This document shows, one piece after another, positions 1-11,590 of a stretch of DNA of 27,309 nucleotides. How positions within the stretch are numbered: position 1 is the stretch's first letter; each line of letters opens with the position of its first letter. The stretch is from a virus. The stretch covers positions 1-27,309 of IMG/VR virus record IMGVR_UViG_3300030060_003576. One strand, written 5' to 3'. The position numbers and the translations under genes were made by a program. Below the pieces are notes generated by a model that ran no database searches, was not told the DNA's origin, and worked only from the letters and a program-made list of their open reading frames with translations.

Positions 1-159
1 GTTCACTTCATGGAACAGATCCGTGGCAACGCCAAGCAGACCAAGCCGGATTTGGTCGATCTGTTTGCCAAGACTCAAATTGCACTAGCCCAGATCCAAA
101 AGTTTCTGGAAATCGACAGTGAGATTAACCCTCGTATTAATCAGATGCTTAATCATTAG
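1..159 (+). CDS. 3' end of an unknown phage protein (partial)
   Basis: Frame 1 is open from the first base to a TAG ending at 159 and encodes 52 residues ending in INQMLNH. The piece is hydrophilic and looks alpha-helical (DLVDLFAKTQIALAQIQKFLE). The reading frame may begin upstream of the window; an ATG at base 10 could also be an internal methionine. The next gene starts about 40 bases later on the same strand, so this is probably the upstream member of the same transcript. I do not recognise the family, and too little is visible to propose a function. Confidence 0.6.
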   Translation, partial: VHFMEQIRGNAKQTKPDLVDLFAKTQIALAQIQKFLEIDSEINPRINQMLNH

Positions 160-200
160 CGCGGTTCTCTCGTCATGTTCCGCCCCAGACCCCACCATCA

Positions 201-872
201 TTGCTTCGTCAATTATATATCGGACTTGGTACACAGTCCGGTGGATGGAATTGGATGTTCCACGCCTTGGCGATTTTAGATGGAAAGACAGAGGCGAGGT
301 CGAGCGGCTTCTACGATCTCGCGGATGTTCTCGCGGACACGCCAAACCTTTTGGTGTCGCTCGAAGATGTTTTCACGGAGATAAGATCGAAGACACTTGT
401 ATGGCACAACTGGAGTGCCGACCATCGAAACGTCCTCTTCGGTGAGTGGCACATTGCCAACATCTACCGGTCAGACACGATAGCACGGGGCCGAAGGCAG
501 AAGCCGCGCCCGAAAATGGCCAGCCATAGGGAAATGGCGAAGTGGATAAAATCCGTCCGGGCATTGCCCGAGGAGTTCCCGGTATCGAAGGCGGTGTTCG
601 ATAAAGTCCCAGCCGTAAACTTCGTCGGCCTCTCGCGCCTCGGGCCGAAGAGCTACCTTCAAACCCACACGCATAACAATCCGGATGCACTTGTCTGTCA
701 TGTCGGCGTGGACATTCCAGAGGGGGATGTCGGAATAGAGGTGGATGGCGAAGACCGCTCTTGGTTCCACGACCGGCAAGTTATCGTTTTTGATGACTGT
801 CTTCCTCACATGGCGTGGAACTGGAGCAGTCAACCTAGAACCGTTTTGCACATAGACATCGAGAACAAATGA
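201..872 (+). CDS. AspH-type Fe(II)/2-oxoglutarate-dependent oxygenase
   Basis: A 223-residue protein whose C-terminal half (about 137-222) matches the aspartyl/asparaginyl beta-hydroxylase fold (PF05118). Three features recall human AspH: H156 lies eleven residues before H167 in CHVGVDIP, like H679 and H690 in AspH; the FDDCLPHMAWN block carries H203, like H725; and R213 lies ten residues after it, like R735, which binds 2-oxoglutarate. The predicted reaction is oxidative decarboxylation of 2-oxoglutarate coupled to hydroxylation of a substrate, probably a protein side chain; the substrate is unknown. Residues 1-110 match nothing I recognise. The start is TTG at 201, the only common start codon after an in-frame stop at 150; ATG at 255 is the alternative. 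The stop overlaps the next ATG (ATGA), so the two genes are translationally coupled. The family call is strong, the biological role is not. Confidence 0.85.
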   Translation: MLRQLYIGLGTQSGGWNWMFHALAILDGKTEARSSGFYDLADVLADTPNLLVSLEDVFTEIRSKTLVWHNWSADHRNVLFGEWHIANIYRSDTIARGRRQKPRPKMASHREMAKWIKSVRALPEEFPVSKAVFDKVPAVNFVGLSRLGPKSYLQTHTHNNPDALVCHVGVDIPEGDVGIEVDGEDRSWFHDRQVIVFDDCLPHMAWNWSSQPRTVLHIDIENK

Positions 873-1084
873 AGACCGTCATTCATGTTAATCAGCACGT
901 CATTCGTGCGAATAAAAAGAACGGGGAGGACAACCCGCCGATCACCGTCAAGACCTACAAGTCGAACATCTATTGCAAGTCCGTTGAGATCGAGGGGCCA
1001 GCGACAGTTAAGTACGATCAGAAAGGACTTAGCTGTGGTGCGCGGGTGTGGGTCGAGACGCAATCGAAGGTAGTAACAGAATGA
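869..1084 (+). CDS. Small conserved phage protein, function unknown
   Basis: A 71-residue protein starting MKTVIHVNQHVIRANKK and containing LSCGARVWVET near its C-terminus. From memory this pattern (VNQH-IK-N-K, then TVKTYK, then SCGA-VW-ET) recurs as a short hypothetical protein in many phages, often near other early or packaging-adjacent small genes. It looks mostly beta-stranded, with two cysteines (C36 and C56), no signal peptide and no membrane segment. It overlaps both neighbours by ATGA junctions, so it is translated in a coupled run of three genes. The function is unknown. Confidence 0.75.
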   Translation: MKTVIHVNQHVIRANKKNGEDNPPITVKTYKSNIYCKSVEIEGPATVKYDQKGLSCGARVWVETQSKVVTE

Positions 1085-1332
1085 ACCCCGTTGAGACGCC
1101 AAAACATTACAAGCAGTCGATCCAGTGCTGGGATGCAATGGAAGCCATGCAAGACGATCCCGACCGCGAGGCGAACATCGTGGTCACGCCGCATATGGCG
1201 TACTGTTGGGGTAATGTTTTTAAGTATCTGTGGCGTTGGCCTTACAAAAATAAGCCCGTCGAGGATCTCCGAAAAGCCCGCCAGTATTTGGACAGATTAA
1301 TCGAGCGAGCGGAAATTCAAGAACTCGACTGA
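1081..1332 (+). CDS. DUF3310 family protein
   Basis: An 83-residue protein with the DUF3310 (PF11753) pattern: NPVETPKHY at the N-terminus, then AYCWGNVFKYLWRWPYKN, then EDLRKARQYLDRLIE. These correspond to the family's HY, GN-hKYhhR and DLxKAxxYLxxLI blocks. The ATG at 1081 overlaps the previous stop and places the family's usual N-terminus at residue 1; an upstream in-frame start near 1048 would add eleven poorly fitting residues. DUF3310 proteins are common in phages, usually among nucleotide-metabolism or replication genes, and no function is established. It is the last gene before the packaging genes, separated from terL by 47 bases. Confidence 0.88.
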   Translation: MNPVETPKHYKQSIQCWDAMEAMQDDPDREANIVVTPHMAYCWGNVFKYLWRWPYKNKPVEDLRKARQYLDRLIERAEIQELD

Positions 1333-1379: not shown

Positions 1380-2885
1380 ATGCAGACTGCCGACATACTA
1401 AGTCGGCTAGACGAGCTTCCCCCGGAGCACCAGCTTCGCATTGCAAAGGCGCTTAACGCCCTTACGAAAATCAACCAGAAGGAAGCAGCGCAAAGGCAGT
1501 TCCTGCCTTTCGTAAAAAGCGTCTGGCCAGATTTTATTGAGGGTAGGCACCACCGTATCATGGCGGATGCCTTCGAGCGCGTCTCCCGTGGGGAACTCAA
1601 GCGGCTGTGCATTAACATTGCACCACGCCACGGTAAGTCGGAGCTTACGAGTTACATGCTCCCGGCTTGGCTTCTCGGACAAGACCCGTCGCGCAAAGTC
1701 ATTTGCGCTACGCACACAACAGAATTTAGCCAGAGGTTTGGACGAAAGGTCCGAAACCTTATCGAGAGCGACGACTTCAAAGCTGTCTTTCCCGAGACGG
1801 CACTCAAGGCTGATAGTAAAGCTGCCGGTCGATGGGATGTCAGTGGGGGAGGTGAGTACTTTGCTTGTGGTGTCGGCGCGGCCATGACCGGTCGCGGTGC
1901 CGACCTTTTGATTATCGATGACCCGCATTCAGAGTCAGCCGGTATCAATCCGACAAACGAATACTTTGAGTCAGTCTACGAATGGTATTCTTCGGGTCCA
2001 CGGCAGAGACTTCAGCCGGGTGGTGCAATCATCATCGTAATGACCCGGTGGCACCAACTGGATCTGACGGGGCGGGTTATCAAAGCCTCGGAGGTTCGAG
2101 GCGGTGACCAGTGGGAAGTCATTACGCTACCCGCCGTCGATGAATATGAGATCCCGCTCTGGCCAGAGTTCTGGAAGAAAGAAGAACTGGACGCCCTTCG
2201 CGCCACGATCCCGATCTCGAAGTGGAGCGCCCAGTACCAGCAAGACCCCACATCAGAAGAGGGTGCTCTTATAAAGCGCGAGCACTGGAATATGTGGGAC
2301 CAGAAGAACCCACCGGCATGTGAGTTCATTCTGCAAACGGTTGATACGGCGCATACCAAGAATGCGCGAAGCGATTACTCCGCAATAACGACGTGGGGCG
2401 TGTTCAACCATCCGGACGAAAACGGTATCTACGTTCCGAATATTATTTTGTTAGATGCGGTAAACGAGAAGCTGGAGTTTCCGGAACTAAAGAGAAAATG
2501 TTTTGAGCTTTACGAGGACTATCAGCCGGATGCGTTCCTAGTCGAAGCAAAGGCTGCTGGGTTTCCGCTCATCCAAGAGATGAGGGCTGTGGGTCTTCCG
2601 GTATCGGAATACTCGCCGTCGAGAGGGCAAGACAAACTATCGAGAGTTAACGCTGTGTCGGACATCTTCTCCAACGGAGTTGTCTGGGCACCACGCACCA
2701 GATGGGCCGAAGAGGTTATAGAACAATGTGCCGCCTTCCCAAACGGCGCACATGACGACCTTGTCGATAGCACCACGCTGGCACTTCTAAGGTTTCGCCA
2801 AGGCGGGTTCATTCCGCTTGCAACAGATTTTGAGGACGAGCCGCCGTGGATGAACATCCCATCCAGATCAGCGGCGTACTACTAG
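1380..2885 (+). CDS. terL: Terminase large subunit
   Basis: A 501-residue DNA-packaging motor. The N-terminal ATPase carries an atypical Walker A (PRHGKSEL, residues 82-89), a Walker B (LLIIDDP, 176-182) and a coupling motif MTRWH (221-225). The C-terminal RNase H-like nuclease has candidate metal ligands D322 (QTVDTAH), E389 (FLVEAKAAG) and D459/D460 (NGAHDDLVD). The order and motifs fit the psiM2-type large terminase group. It binds the portal, translocates DNA into the prohead and cuts the concatemer. The length is normal and the gene looks intact. The ATG at 1380 follows AGAGGA at 1367-1372. The stop overlaps the AGGAG that probably serves the portal gene. No small terminase was recognised in the window; it may lie upstream or be one of the small unknown genes. 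Confidence 0.96.
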   Translation: MQTADILSRLDELPPEHQLRIAKALNALTKINQKEAAQRQFLPFVKSVWPDFIEGRHHRIMADAFERVSRGELKRLCINIAPRHGKSELTSYMLPAWLLGQDPSRKVICATHTTEFSQRFGRKVRNLIESDDFKAVFPETALKADSKAAGRWDVSGGGEYFACGVGAAMTGRGADLLIIDDPHSESAGINPTNEYFESVYEWYSSGPRQRLQPGGAIIIVMTRWHQLDLTGRVIKASEVRGGDQWEVITLPAVDEYEIPLWPEFWKKEELDALRATIPISKWSAQYQQDPTSEEGALIKREHWNMWDQKNPPACEFILQTVDTAHTKNARSDYSAITTWGVFNHPDENGIYVPNIILLDAVNEKLEFPELKRKCFELYEDYQPDAFLVEAKAAGFPLIQEMRAVGLPVSEYSPSRGQDKLSRVNAVSDIFSNGVVWAPRTRWAEEVIEQCAAFPNGAHDDLVDSTTLALLRFRQGGFIPLATDFEDEPPWMNIPSRSAAYY

Positions 2886-2907: not shown

Positions 2908-5403
2908 TTGAGAAACATTGCAGATACGGTTCCCTTGGAGGAAGCCGCGCAAAACGAAGCTCCTATCGAGATCGAGATTGAAGAAACGGTAATTGAGTTT
3001 GAGGGACCGGCGCTTGTTGTCGAAGTCCCAGAGTTCAATTCCAATCTCGCAGACTTTATGGAGGACGGCGATTTAGAGTCGCTTGCCTCTGAACTATCCG
3101 GACAGTTTGAAAGCGACAAGTCTTCAAGGGAGGACTGGGAAGAGTCGTATGTAAAAGGACTAGACCTTCTGGGGTTGAAGGTCGAAGACAGAACACAGCC
3201 TTGGCCGGGGGCGTGCGGTGTTTATCACCCGCTCTTAACCGAGGCAGTGGTGCGTTTCCAAAGTCAGACCATTACCGAGGTGTTCCCGGCCAGTGGCCCG
3301 GTTCGCACTTCTATTATTGGCAAGGAAACGAAAGAGCGCGTTCAGCAATCTGAAAGAGTGCAGAACGAACTCAACTACCAGCTACTGGAGGTAATGACGG
3401 AGTACCGTCCAGAAATGGAACAACTTTTGTTCCATCTTCCTTTGGCTGGGTCTGCCTTTAAGAAAGTCTATTACGACCCATCCCTTGGTCGTGCATGTGC
3501 GATGTTCGTGCCCGCCGAGGATTTTGTCGTCAGCCACGGGGCGTCAGACTTAATGACCAGCCCCCGATATACGCACGTCATGCGCCGAATGAAGAATGAC
3601 GTTCGTAAACTACAAGTGGCGGGATTTTACCGGGACGTGGAGCTTCCAGATCCTTCCCCCGACTATAGTAAAATCCAAGAAAAAATTGACGATCTCGATG
3701 GGTCAGCGGAGGTCGAGGCTGACGGGCGATTAGTCCTCCTCGAAATGCACGTTGATCTCGACCTCCCCGGTTTTGAGGATCTCGACTCCGACATGGAGCC
3801 GACCGGAATTGAGTTACCGTATGTGGTGACAATGGTCCGGGGTACGGGCGAGATCCTTTCGGTCTATCGCAACTACCGAGAAGACGATCCGCTTAAACTC
3901 AAGCGTCAGCACTTCGTCCATTATCAATACCTACCCGGTCTTGGGTTCTATGGCACCGGCCTCATCCATCTGATTGGTGGCTTGGCCAAGTCTGCGACCA
4001 GCATCTTACGTCAACTGGTTGACGCCGGTACGCTCTCGAACTTACCCGCCGGATTGAAGGCGAGGGGTCTCCGGATTAAGGGAGACGACAGCCCGATTAT
4101 GCCGGGTGAGTTTAGAGATGTAGATGTACCGGGCGGTAGCATTCGCGATAACATTTCGTTCCTCCCCTACAAAGAACCGTCGAGCGTTCTCTACCAACTA
4201 CTCGGCAACATAGTCGAGGAAGGTAGGCGAATAGGTTCGGTTGCCGACTTGCAAGTTGGTATGGGGCAGACCGGCAAGGAAGCGCCGGTAGGAACGACGC
4301 TCGCTATTATGGAACGCGCCATGAAGGTAATGAGTGCGGTTCAAGCCAGAGTACACTCCAGCCTTCGCTCGGAGTTACGTCTTCTGTCAGACGTTATCTC
4401 AACGTCGATGGAAGATGCTTACGATTATGATTTTGGTGAAGATCAGAGTTATTCCCGCAAGGAGGATTTTGATTCCCGCGTAGATATAATTCCCGTATCG
4501 GACCCCAACGCAGCATCGATGTCACAGAGAGTCATGCAATATCAAGCGGCTTTCCAGCTAGCACAGTCAAACCCTAACCTCTACGACATGCCGTTGCTGC
4601 ACAGACAAATGATGGAGACGCTCGGCATCCCGAATGCCGATGAGATCGTTAAGTCGCCAGATGACATGGAGCCGATGGACCCGGTCTCCGAAAACATGGC
4701 GATAATGAAAGGCAAGCCCGTCAAGGCATTCGTCTATCAAGATCACGAAAGTCACATCAAGACACACCTCGCTGCCGCGCAAGACCCACTTATCCGTCAA
4801 CTGGTCGCTGGTTCTCCAATGGCCAAGGCTATGGAGTCCGGTCTTGCCGCACACGTTGCAGAGCACGTTGCGTTCCAGTATCGCCGTGAAATCGAAATGG
4901 CTATGGGCGCACAGCTTCCAGAAACCGAGAAGCCGTTGCCAGAGGATGTCGAGTTCAAATACTCGAAGCTCGTTGCTGATGCCGCTGACAAGGTGCTCGC
5001 CAAAGACAAGGCGATTGCGGAAATGCAGAAGCGCCAGCAGATGGAGCAAGATCCAGTTGTGCAAATGCAGCGCAAGGAACTGGAGATCAAGGAAGCAGAA
5101 GTCCAGCGCAAGGCACTCTCCGACAAGAACCGCACAGAGCTAGAGCGTGAGCGCATCCAGACCACAGCCGCAATGAAAGCTGCTGAGATTGCGTCTGAAG
5201 ATCAGCGCACCGGGTTGCAAGTCGGCGTTGAGATCGCCAAGGCCCGCGAGAGCTTGGAAGCTGAAGGTAAACGTGAAGGTCTGAAATTCGGTGTCGATAT
5301 CGCCAAGGATATCGCAAACCGCGAAAGCAAAGAGAAATTGGAAGGTGCCCGTCTCGGTGTCGAGGTAGGGCGCGTGCTGACAGAACAACAAAACAAAGAA
5401 TGA
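2908..5403 (+). CDS. Portal protein (P22-like)
   Basis: An 831-residue portal, which as a ring at one capsid vertex forms the DNA channel and the docking site for terminase and neck proteins. It is recognised by its place straight after terL, its size and its central pattern: REDWEESYVKGLDLLG, TQPWPGACGVYHPLL, FQSQTITEVFPASGPV, then HYQYLPGLGFYGTGLIHLIG. The first 65 residues are strongly acidic. Residues from about 690 to the end form a long charged helix with repeated K/E/R/A segments (QVGVEIAKARES, KFGVDIAKDIA, RLGVEVGRVL), suggesting a coiled coil or barrel. This size and C-terminal helix resemble P22-type portals with a barrel. The conventional start is TTG at 2908, but AGGAG spacing suggests ATA at 2896, which would add four residues ending ELL. 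The stop overlaps the next ATG. Confidence 0.9.
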   Translation: MRNIADTVPLEEAAQNEAPIEIEIEETVIEFEGPALVVEVPEFNSNLADFMEDGDLESLASELSGQFESDKSSREDWEESYVKGLDLLGLKVEDRTQPWPGACGVYHPLLTEAVVRFQSQTITEVFPASGPVRTSIIGKETKERVQQSERVQNELNYQLLEVMTEYRPEMEQLLFHLPLAGSAFKKVYYDPSLGRACAMFVPAEDFVVSHGASDLMTSPRYTHVMRRMKNDVRKLQVAGFYRDVELPDPSPDYSKIQEKIDDLDGSAEVEADGRLVLLEMHVDLDLPGFEDLDSDMEPTGIELPYVVTMVRGTGEILSVYRNYREDDPLKLKRQHFVHYQYLPGLGFYGTGLIHLIGGLAKSATSILRQLVDAGTLSNLPAGLKARGLRIKGDDSPIMPGEFRDVDVPGGSIRDNISFLPYKEPSSVLYQLLGNIVEEGRRIGSVADLQVGMGQTGKEAPVGTTLAIMERAMKVMSAVQARVHSSLRSELRLLSDVISTSMEDAYDYDFGEDQSYSRKEDFDSRVDIIPVSDPNAASMSQRVMQYQAAFQLAQSNPNLYDMPLLHRQMMETLGIPNADEIVKSPDDMEPMDPVSENMAIMKGKPVKAFVYQDHESHIKTHLAAAQDPLIRQLVAGSPMAKAMESGLAAHVAEHVAFQYRREIEMAMGAQLPETEKPLPEDVEFKYSKLVADAADKVLAKDKAIAEMQKRQQMEQDPVVQMQRKELEIKEAEVQRKALSDKNRTELERERIQTTAAMKAAEIASEDQRTGLQVGVEIAKARESLEAEGKREGLKFGVDIAKDIANRESKEKLEGARLGVEVGRVLTEQQNKE

Positions 5404-5832: not shown

Positions 5833-5849
5833 CGGCACACACCAGCCGT
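5832..5849 (+). other. Small hairpin before the co-chaperonin gene
   Basis: ACGGC (5832-5836) and GCCGT (5845-5849) can pair around an eight-base loop, in the gap between the 5596 gene and the GroES-like gene if the latter starts at 5878. No T run follows, so it is not a standard terminator. It may be an RNA processing or stability element, or chance. Confidence 0.25.
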
Positions 5850-5877
5850 GATGGTGGCTAAAACAAAAGAGAGACGA

Positions 5878-6228
5878 ATGACCGCTGAACCAGCGCCAAA
5901 AATGCTGCCGGAACCTTCCGGCTATAAAATCCTCATCTCCATTCCGGAGCATGAGGAGAAAACCGATGGTGGTGTTTTCCTCCCAGATCGTTTCAAGACG
6001 GCTGAAGAGACCGCATCAATTGTCGGCTTTGTACTAAAACTCGGACCTCTCGCGTATGGCGACGAGGATAAATTCCCGACCGGCCCTTACTGCAAGGAAG
6101 GCGACTTTGTTGTTTTCCGCTCTTACTCCGGAACCCGTTTCAAGGTGAAGGGTAAGGAGTTTCGGCTGATCAACGACGACACGGTAGAAGCCGTTGTCGA
6201 TGATCCACGGGGGTTTGAACGAGCATGA
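5878..6228 (+). CDS. GroES-like co-chaperonin (phage Cpn10)
   Basis: A 116-residue protein with the Cpn10 layout: a first strand SGYKILISIP, a mobile-loop-like stretch EKTDGGVFLPDRFKT that matches the GroES pattern E-k-t-x-GG-h-h-L, then ASIVGFVLKLGP, a barrel strand GDFVVFRSYSGTRFKVKG, and EFRLINDDTVEAVV at the end. It is expected to form a heptameric cap on the host GroEL and help fold a phage protein, most likely the major capsid protein as for T4 gp31. The ATG at 5878 is preceded by AAAGAGAGACGA, a better ribosome binding site than that of the upstream in-frame GTG (5848) or ATG (5851), which would add ten or nine residues. The stop overlaps the scaffold ATG, placing it directly in the head-assembly set. 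Confidence 0.87.
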   Translation: MTAEPAPKMLPEPSGYKILISIPEHEEKTDGGVFLPDRFKTAEETASIVGFVLKLGPLAYGDEDKFPTGPYCKEGDFVVFRSYSGTRFKVKGKEFRLINDDTVEAVVDDPRGFERA

Positions 6229-10618: not shown

Positions 10619-11322
10619 TGCCCCATCTGATAAGTAACGTACCGCACTTCAATTGCTGGGTACGCAAAGAGTTCACAGCCAATCATCAAGACTATCACGG
10701 CGAGTTTTTGCACGCGATGGCTTTTGCTGTGAACACCATTCCAGATCGCTCTTTAAGTTTTCAAATCGTTTTCACTGGTTGTGAGATCGATATGGAAGGC
10801 GGGCCAGAAGAAAACCTACACGGCGGTGCTATGTGGGCGAGGATGCCAATTCAAGCATTGGTAGCCGACATTCCGTTAGAGGAATGGCCAGAGCCGATGG
10901 AAGATCATCTGTGTCAACCTTGGGACTGTGAGTCCCGAGATCACAGTGTGGTAACGATGGACCGGGTAAGTTCCTCGCCGTGGATCTGTAAAATCGATGA
11001 CGAGTTCCACACGGGCAAATATCTGTTCACCGTTGATTACACCGGCAACGATATCGCTGACGATCCGGCACAGCATAAACAGTCTCACGTTATTTATCTA
11101 ACGGACGCGGGGAAATGGACGGGTAACTTTGTTGCGCTGCCCAACAACCGCGTTCGAGCAACTAGCCCAGCATTGTGGAGGACGGGAGAGGGAGCGCCAG
11201 ACTTCACGCCGTCTCAGTGGACGCACAGCGCAGAAGGCCATGAATCGTACCTCGATCCCGAAACAACTTTCAACAACCTCTACTCGGAAACGAATGCCAA
11301 GAAAAAAAGAAAAACCGATTAG
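10618..11322 (+). CDS. Conserved phage protein, function unknown
   Basis: A 234-residue protein starting MPHLISNVPHFNCWVRKEF, with a central LEEWPEPMEDHLCQPWDCES and a later CKIDDEFHTGKYLFTVDYTG and ALPNNRVRATSPALW. From memory, this set (PHxxCWVRKE; LQxWDC; GKxYxGEYLFTxDx; QPNNRV) is a well-spread hypothetical protein of cyanophages and other marine phages. The conserved Trp, Cys and His residues make an enzyme or a small virion domain possible. The C-terminal tail SETNAKKKRKTD is basic and overlaps the start of the next gene by 29 bases around a run of seven A. Confidence 0.78.
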   Translation: MPHLISNVPHFNCWVRKEFTANHQDYHGEFLHAMAFAVNTIPDRSLSFQIVFTGCEIDMEGGPEENLHGGAMWARMPIQALVADIPLEEWPEPMEDHLCQPWDCESRDHSVVTMDRVSSSPWICKIDDEFHTGKYLFTVDYTGNDIADDPAQHKQSHVIYLTDAGKWTGNFVALPNNRVRATSPALWRTGEGAPDFTPSQWTHSAEGHESYLDPETTFNNLYSETNAKKKRKTD

Positions 11323-11590
11323 GAAAACGACCAAGGGGTCTGGCGCAAATTACAGAAAGACTAAAAGCGGTGCCGGTATGACTGAAAAAGGAGTTGCGGC
11401 ATACCGAAGGAAGAACCCCGGATCGAAGTTGAAAACCGCTGTGACCGGCAGTCCGAAGAAGGGATCGAAAGACGCGAAGAGGCGCAAGAGTTATTGCGCT
11501 CGCAGTGCCGGGCAGATGAAGAAGTTTCCGAAGGCAGCTAAGAATCCAAACAGTCGCCTACGGCAAGCGCGGAAAAGGTGGAAGTGCTAA
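11294..11590 (+). CDS. Lys/Arg-rich basic mini-protein 2
   Basis: A 98-residue protein. The start is the ATG at 11294, inside the end of the previous gene; the frame is open upstream, but that is shadow coding. The conserved-looking core is KSGAGMTEKGVAAYRRKNPG, then SKLKTAVTGSPKKGSKDAKR and RRKSYCARSAGQMKKFP, ending LRQARKRWKC. This core (GhTxKGxxAYxRxNPGSxLKTAVT, then KSYCARsaG, then a final WKC) recurs in phage and giant-virus proteins; I think a DUF exists for it (possibly DUF6321) but cannot confirm the name. Two cysteines (C68 and the terminal C98) could bind metal. Function unknown; the charge suggests nucleic acid binding. Confidence 0.75.
   Translation: MPRKKEKPIRKTTKGSGANYRKTKSGAGMTEKGVAAYRRKNPGSKLKTAVTGSPKKGSKDAKRRKSYCARSAGQMKKFPKAAKNPNSRLRQARKRWKC

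Follow-up and report, generated by a model that had tools for sequence, protein, structure and literature searches.

What would an oxygenase related to human AspH do in a bacterial virus, and is it still an enzyme of the AspH type? The question is raised by an open frame at 201–872 on the + strand of the window analysed here, i.e., the whole stretch of 27,309 nt taken from the IMG/VR record IMGVR_UViG_3300030060_003576, a 27.6 kb linear virus fragment. The frame scores 70.2 bits on the PF05118 (Asp_Arg_Hydrox) profile, whose cut-off is 22.6 (E = 2.3e-19), in agreement with the family proposed earlier from the letters alone (the sequence-only reading), and the product is a member of this family.

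Phage genes of the PF05118 type have been published before. Cyanophages P-HM1 and P-HM2 carry two, described as 'asparaginyl beta-hydroxylases' (PMC3037559), an 'aspartyl/asparaginyl beta-hydroxylase' is a core gene of pelagimyophages (PMC7029224), and one is on record for Limnohabitans phage DC33 (PMC12195039). The cyanophage (TlmH-type) and pelagimyophage proteins resemble that of the window in being marine phage members of the family and are distant from it in sequence, the former also keeping the HxG motif and the arginine equivalent to AspH R688. No paper on the substrate of a phage PF05118 protein was found in the open-licence PMC literature. What is new is the active-site pattern of the clade described below; otherwise the gene is a further phage 2-oxoglutarate (2OG) oxygenase.

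Extent of the Oxygenase Gene

The sequence-only reading had started the gene at TTG 201. In the relatives L004 and L006 the oxygenase frame is closed by in-frame stops 5′ of the position equivalent to 255 of the window, the ATG at 255 is conserved among relatives, and substitutions in 159–254 fall preferentially on third positions in the frame running from 119, rather than on those in the frame of the oxygenase. The oxygenase gene is therefore the shorter one given in Table 1, and the earlier residue numbers are 18 too high. Six IMG/VR contigs encode proteins 79–98% identical to the window oxygenase, and L020 and L189 are two further members of the clade. Between clade members dN/dS is about 0.08–0.14, so the gene has been kept for function; it is real, not a chance open frame, and is under strong purifying selection. 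The protein has no match in PHROG.

Table 1. Features of the oxygenase locus (window coordinates; residues numbered from ATG 255).
Feature	Position	Strand	Evidence and remarks
Lipoprotein-like frame, overlapping	119..445	+	GTG start in window, ATG in L004/L006; lipobox LSSC; 3′ limit uncertain
Open stretch with TTG 'start', outside the oxygenase, within the overlapping upstream frame	201..254	+	Stops in L004/L006; codon-position pattern
PF05118 (AspH/LpxO superfamily) Fe(II)/2OG oxygenase gene	255..872	+	205 aa from ATG 255; Pfam match, conserved ATG, dN/dS
W65 (AspH W625)	447..449	+	Invariant in alignment A5; position by counting along 5apa in the profile alignment
Basic loop IARGRRQKPR, residues 76–85	480..509	+	pLDDT <50; no counterpart in bacterial and Itty13-like rows of A5
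S127 (AspH S668; 2OG C5 carboxylate)	633..635	+	Alignments; role from PMC6817910
H138 (AspH H679; iron ligand)	666..668	+	Alignments, 86 bacterial domains
H140, at the position of a third ligand (AspH, Gly681; LpxO, Asp)	672..674	+	His in every clade member
A145 and V147, in place of AspH R686 and R688	687..695	+	Alignments, 86 bacterial domains
H149 (AspH H690; 2OG C1 carboxylate)	699..701	+	Alignments; role from PMC6817910
H185 (AspH H725; iron ligand)	807..809	+	Alignments, 86 bacterial domains
R195 (AspH R735; 2OG C5 carboxylate)	837..839	+	Alignments, 86 bacterial domains
71-aa neighbour, phrog_8676	869..1084	+	Shared with some relatives; L002, L006 and L020 lack it
DUF3310 gene	1048..1332	+	PF11753, E 2e-13
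Terminase large subunit (TerL)	1380..2885	+	Database matches
Portal protein	2908..5403	+	phrog_1216, E 1e-37; 44% to HTVC023P

Gene Neighbourhood and Related Phages

As the sequence-only reading had noted, the oxygenase lies among packaging genes, ahead of those for DUF3310 and TerL. Relatives have the genes in the order TerS, HTH, a small gene, an MT-A70 methyltransferase, a small acidic gene, a 92-aa gene, the lipoprotein-like frame, the oxygenase, (the 71-aa gene), DUF3310, TerL and portal. The lipoprotein-like frame (MRLTLVLIRCLIISAVLSSC...) overlaps the 92-aa gene on its upstream side as well as the oxygenase, and L002, L004, L006 and L189 have it at the same position. Up to about position 255 it is conserved in a frame other than that of the oxygenase, its start part being kept down to 42% identity, and it matches nothing in Pfam or PHROG. 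In L190 (TerL 83% identity) the neighbours are present and both the lipoprotein-like frame and the oxygenase are absent, so the pair is accessory; the oxygenase is carried between the terminase genes.

The window comes from a marine-type bacterial virus, one of a set of phages related to the HTVC023P type. Its TerL and portal proteins are nearest to those of HTVC023P-type pelagiphages (TerL 50–51%, portal 41–44%), 023Pt_psg01 and DSL-LC04. HTVC023P-type pelagiphages also have several 2OG-Fe(II) oxygenase genes (PMC9599517); a PF05118 search of HTVC027P, HTVC023P, 023Pt_psg01, DSL-LC04 and Pag-Yong1 gave no match. The GC content is 52%, versus 35–37% in the pelagiphage stretches, from which we infer that Pelagibacter is probably not the host.

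The related phage L193 (TerL 57–64%) has, between TerL and portal, a PF05118 gene of another, OlsC-like type. As the two proteins are unlike in type and location, it seems that this phage group acquired PF05118 enzymes on more than one occasion. The L193 gene (L193:3546-4250; 234 aa) directly follows TerL and may encode a phage lipid hydroxylase, and the TerL itself (L193:1090-3546) is split by an intein, which matches TIGR01445 and TIGR01443 and encloses an HNH-like frame at about 1959–2624.

Some other genes of the window and its relatives were also recorded. L006, and no other relative, has an extra gene 5′ of the 92-aa gene (L006:1854-3056; phrog_1458/36869) for a 400-aa protein whose C terminus is rich in Cys (CNRCWDCHAC). 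A gene that has moved is that at 11249–11590, within the tail region of the window, for a small basic protein (KPIRKTTKGSGANYRKTKSGAGMTEKG...), which has a close homologue immediately 5′ of TerL in L190 (L190:1958-2254). The 234-aa product of 10618–11322 matches phrog_3704, 'ferredoxin' (E 2e-31), and has no Pfam domain, making the label doubtful. A GroES-like phage co-chaperonin gene among the head genes (5848–6228) is common to HTVC023P and DSL-LC04.

Fold of the Protein

The sequence-only reading had set apart some 110 residues ahead of the domain as matching nothing. From residue ~30 on, they align with human AspH in both profile and structure. In an alignment of 21 rows (A5; the clade, Itty13-like viruses, bacterial HxG enzymes and cyanophage TlmH-type proteins), W65 and P109 are invariant, as are the catalytic residues, and W65 is the equivalent of AspH W625, which places the 'unknown' front within the PF05118 domain. 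Among solved structures the A5 profile matched AspH (5apa) over profile positions 15 to 194 (E 2.5e-29), the sole other match being L-proline cis-4-hydroxylase (4p7w), far lower at E 0.0012; a search with the single sequence matched AspH alone.

Structure prediction from six near-identical sequences gave a pLDDT of only 35.8, while an AlphaFold model built on the 21 sequences of A5 reached 76 (pTM 0.76), with an unreliable substrate-side loop at residues 76–85. The strand at 65–72 is part of the fold, and the strands predicted at E133-138, E145-153, E185-189 and E195-203 belong to a double-stranded beta-helix. On the model and the alignment, H138, H149, H185 and R195 occupy the expected strands, so that neither a different fold nor a misplacement of the active-site His and Arg residues is predicted. 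The best Foldseek match among solved structures was again AspH (E 1.1e-10, about 212 columns, whole chain), followed by 4p7w, and the viral proteins that matched best, from giant viruses and uncultured phages, are named as AspH. The protein therefore has the AspH fold. It shares the iron histidines, the S668/H690/R735 set and W625 with the human oxygenase domain (5apa, 5jqy), and differs in overall sequence (about 16–20% identity) and in having a basic loop specific to the clade. This loop and the first ~20–30 residues are the only parts without counterparts; a separate N-terminal domain is ruled out, its appearance having come from the start error and the divergent front of the same PF05118 domain.

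Relationships

In the phylogenetic tree the LpxO proteins form a group with 100/100 support that does not include the clade, which sits on a long branch and falls, though not firmly, close to the Itty13-like phages. The placements tested, near the Itty13-like phages or with LpxO, gave AU p values of 0.28–0.35, none being rejected or supported. The 184-aa protein of Pseudomonas phage Itty13 and its viral relatives (L021-L023) are likewise stand-alone PF05118 proteins, and in the C-terminal half identity reaches 38%, but they keep HxG and R688, and their front is dissimilar beyond the W strand. A scan of genomes for a close cellular source, which was not exhaustive, gave just 32–36% relatives, and in a similarly non-exhaustive profile search of 300 genomes no cellular relative reached before residue ~96; the donor may be a cell outside the scanned genomes. 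Two sets of apparent phage genes were discarded: an Acinetobacter MD-2021a contig, where a match to the LpxO model lies in a bacterial gene neighbourhood, and Salmonella and E. coli 'phage' database matches, where the records are unannotated or host-like.

Cofactor Site and Third-Ligand Position

Structures of AspH have iron bound by H679 and H725 (PMC6817910), with the C5 carboxylate of 2OG contacting R735 and S668, and the C1 carboxylate H690 and R688 (PMC6817910, PMC12816917). The phage protein retains all five residues of the cofactor set S668, H679, H690, H725 and R735. The earlier equation of H156, H167, H203 and R213 with AspH H679, H690, H725 and R735 is borne out by the alignments, the corrected numbers being H138, H149, H185 and R195. 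These four are invariant in the clade and nearly so across 86 bacterial PF05118 domains. The earlier impression of an intact active site holds for the iron and 2OG residues, but not for the four that contact the substrate Asp, which on alignment are replaced.

AspH is unusual in that just two protein ligands hold the iron. At the third-ligand position the clade always has His, in the forms HTH, HKH, HAH and HLH, while 86 distinct bacterial domains, a sample of limited size drawn largely from one phylum, have Gly in 45, Asp in 40, Glu in one and His in none. A search of IMG/VR with the DNA pattern for HxH[N/T]NxD...HxG recovered this clade alone, the pattern being a narrow one that other kinds of HxH would escape. 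It is possible, although we would not expect it, that H138-x-H140 ... H185 forms a three-histidine metal centre of altered chemistry in place of the ordinary two-histidine AspH site. The invariant third-position His, absent from the bacterial domains, argues for such a centre; the retention of S127 and R195 points instead to ordinary use of 2OG, and His140 may face away from the metal.

Substrate Side and Candidate Activities

The residues with which AspH holds its substrate Asp are R688, K666 and Q627, and R686 touches the substrate backbone (PMC6817910, PMC12816917). In the phage protein Q627, K666, R686 and R688 are replaced by I67, G125, A145 and V147. Bacterial relatives that have Gly as the third-position residue do not conserve K666 either, so its loss alone says little. 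An arginine at the R686 and/or R688 position occurs in 81 of the 86 bacterial domains and at neither position in the clade; going by the alignments, the loss of both is the stronger sign. Taken with the invariant H138-x-H140 ... H185, this loss of both beta-III arginines could tentatively be read as a three-His iron centre within an AspH fold, acting on a new substrate and perhaps with altered chemistry, a combination somewhat less probable than the metal centre by itself.

According to the sequence-only reading, the enzyme would be a true AspH-like one that hydroxylates the side chain of Asp or Asn in a protein of the phage or its host. No solved structure is closer than AspH in either sequence or fold, and its full cofactor set is there. 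With the substrate contacts replaced, however, hydroxylation of the AspH type is not supported; Gly681 has become His, the one-domain protein is without the TPR domain with which AspH binds its EGF substrate, and no frame of the window contains an EGF-type consensus site. We consider this activity improbable. Slightly less so, yet still unlikely, is an activity like that of LpxO or OlsC, in which the enzyme would hydroxylate lipids and so change lipid A or the membrane lipids of the infected cell. In NCBIfam the oxygenase matches the models for these two and no others, the best bacterial matches of the clade profile are mostly LpxO-like proteins of ~300 aa, and a related phage, L193, carries an OlsC-like protein (213.7 bits). 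LpxO and OlsC belong to the same Pfam family, but the phage protein is shorter and fails as a member of either group: it scores 44.7 bits with LpxO (cut-off 500) and 38.8 with OlsC (cut-off 450), both equivalog models, compared to 528.7 for an Acinetobacter LpxO on the LpxO model and 49.7 for the relative L189 on OlsC. It has HxH rather than HxD, the third-ligand Asp being present in 18/18 LpxO-like proteins, and it lacks both the C-terminal extension and the membrane-spanning segment, its Kyte–Doolittle maximum over 19 residues being 0.95 versus 1.5–2.5 in the LpxO-like proteins sampled. The tree also sets the clade outside the LpxO group, although a joint clade was not rejected (p-AU 0.28).

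A hydroxylase of free amino acids or other small molecules, like L-proline cis-4-hydroxylase, seems about as unlikely as the lipid enzyme. 4p7w is the only other solved relative in sequence and the next in fold, but the similarity is weak, and the loci read have no metabolic genes as neighbours. The domain may also be inactive or regulatory, against which stand the retained cofactor residues. On the residues and the model, we consider it probable that the protein is an active phage PF05118 Fe(II)/2OG oxygenase with a remodelled target pocket, hydroxylating a target in the infected cell.

Proposed Function and Outlook

As an active oxygenase, the protein would be a soluble double-stranded beta-helix enzyme of the PF05118 family, holding Fe(II) through H138 and H185, and perhaps H140, binding 2OG through R195, S127 and H149, and using O2 to hydroxylate some target during infection. 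The use of iron and 2OG, the reaction, its target and its timing are all features that we infer. In the remodelled pocket the residues by which AspH grips Asp/Asn have given way to uncharged ones, so Asp or Asn in an EGF-like domain is probably not the substrate. Our best guess, at rather less than even confidence, is that the enzyme hydroxylates a protein side chain, of the host or of the phage; lipid acyl chains, small molecules such as free amino acids, and nucleic acids rank below it. That this side chain differs from the AspH target is suggested with low confidence.

For phage genes of this family more widely, the Pfam title alone is no ground for the name 'Asp/Asn hydroxylase'. The clade represents a branch of the AspH fold, maintained by selection in phages, with His at the position that AspH leaves vacant, and so offers a ready test of the role of the third ligand.
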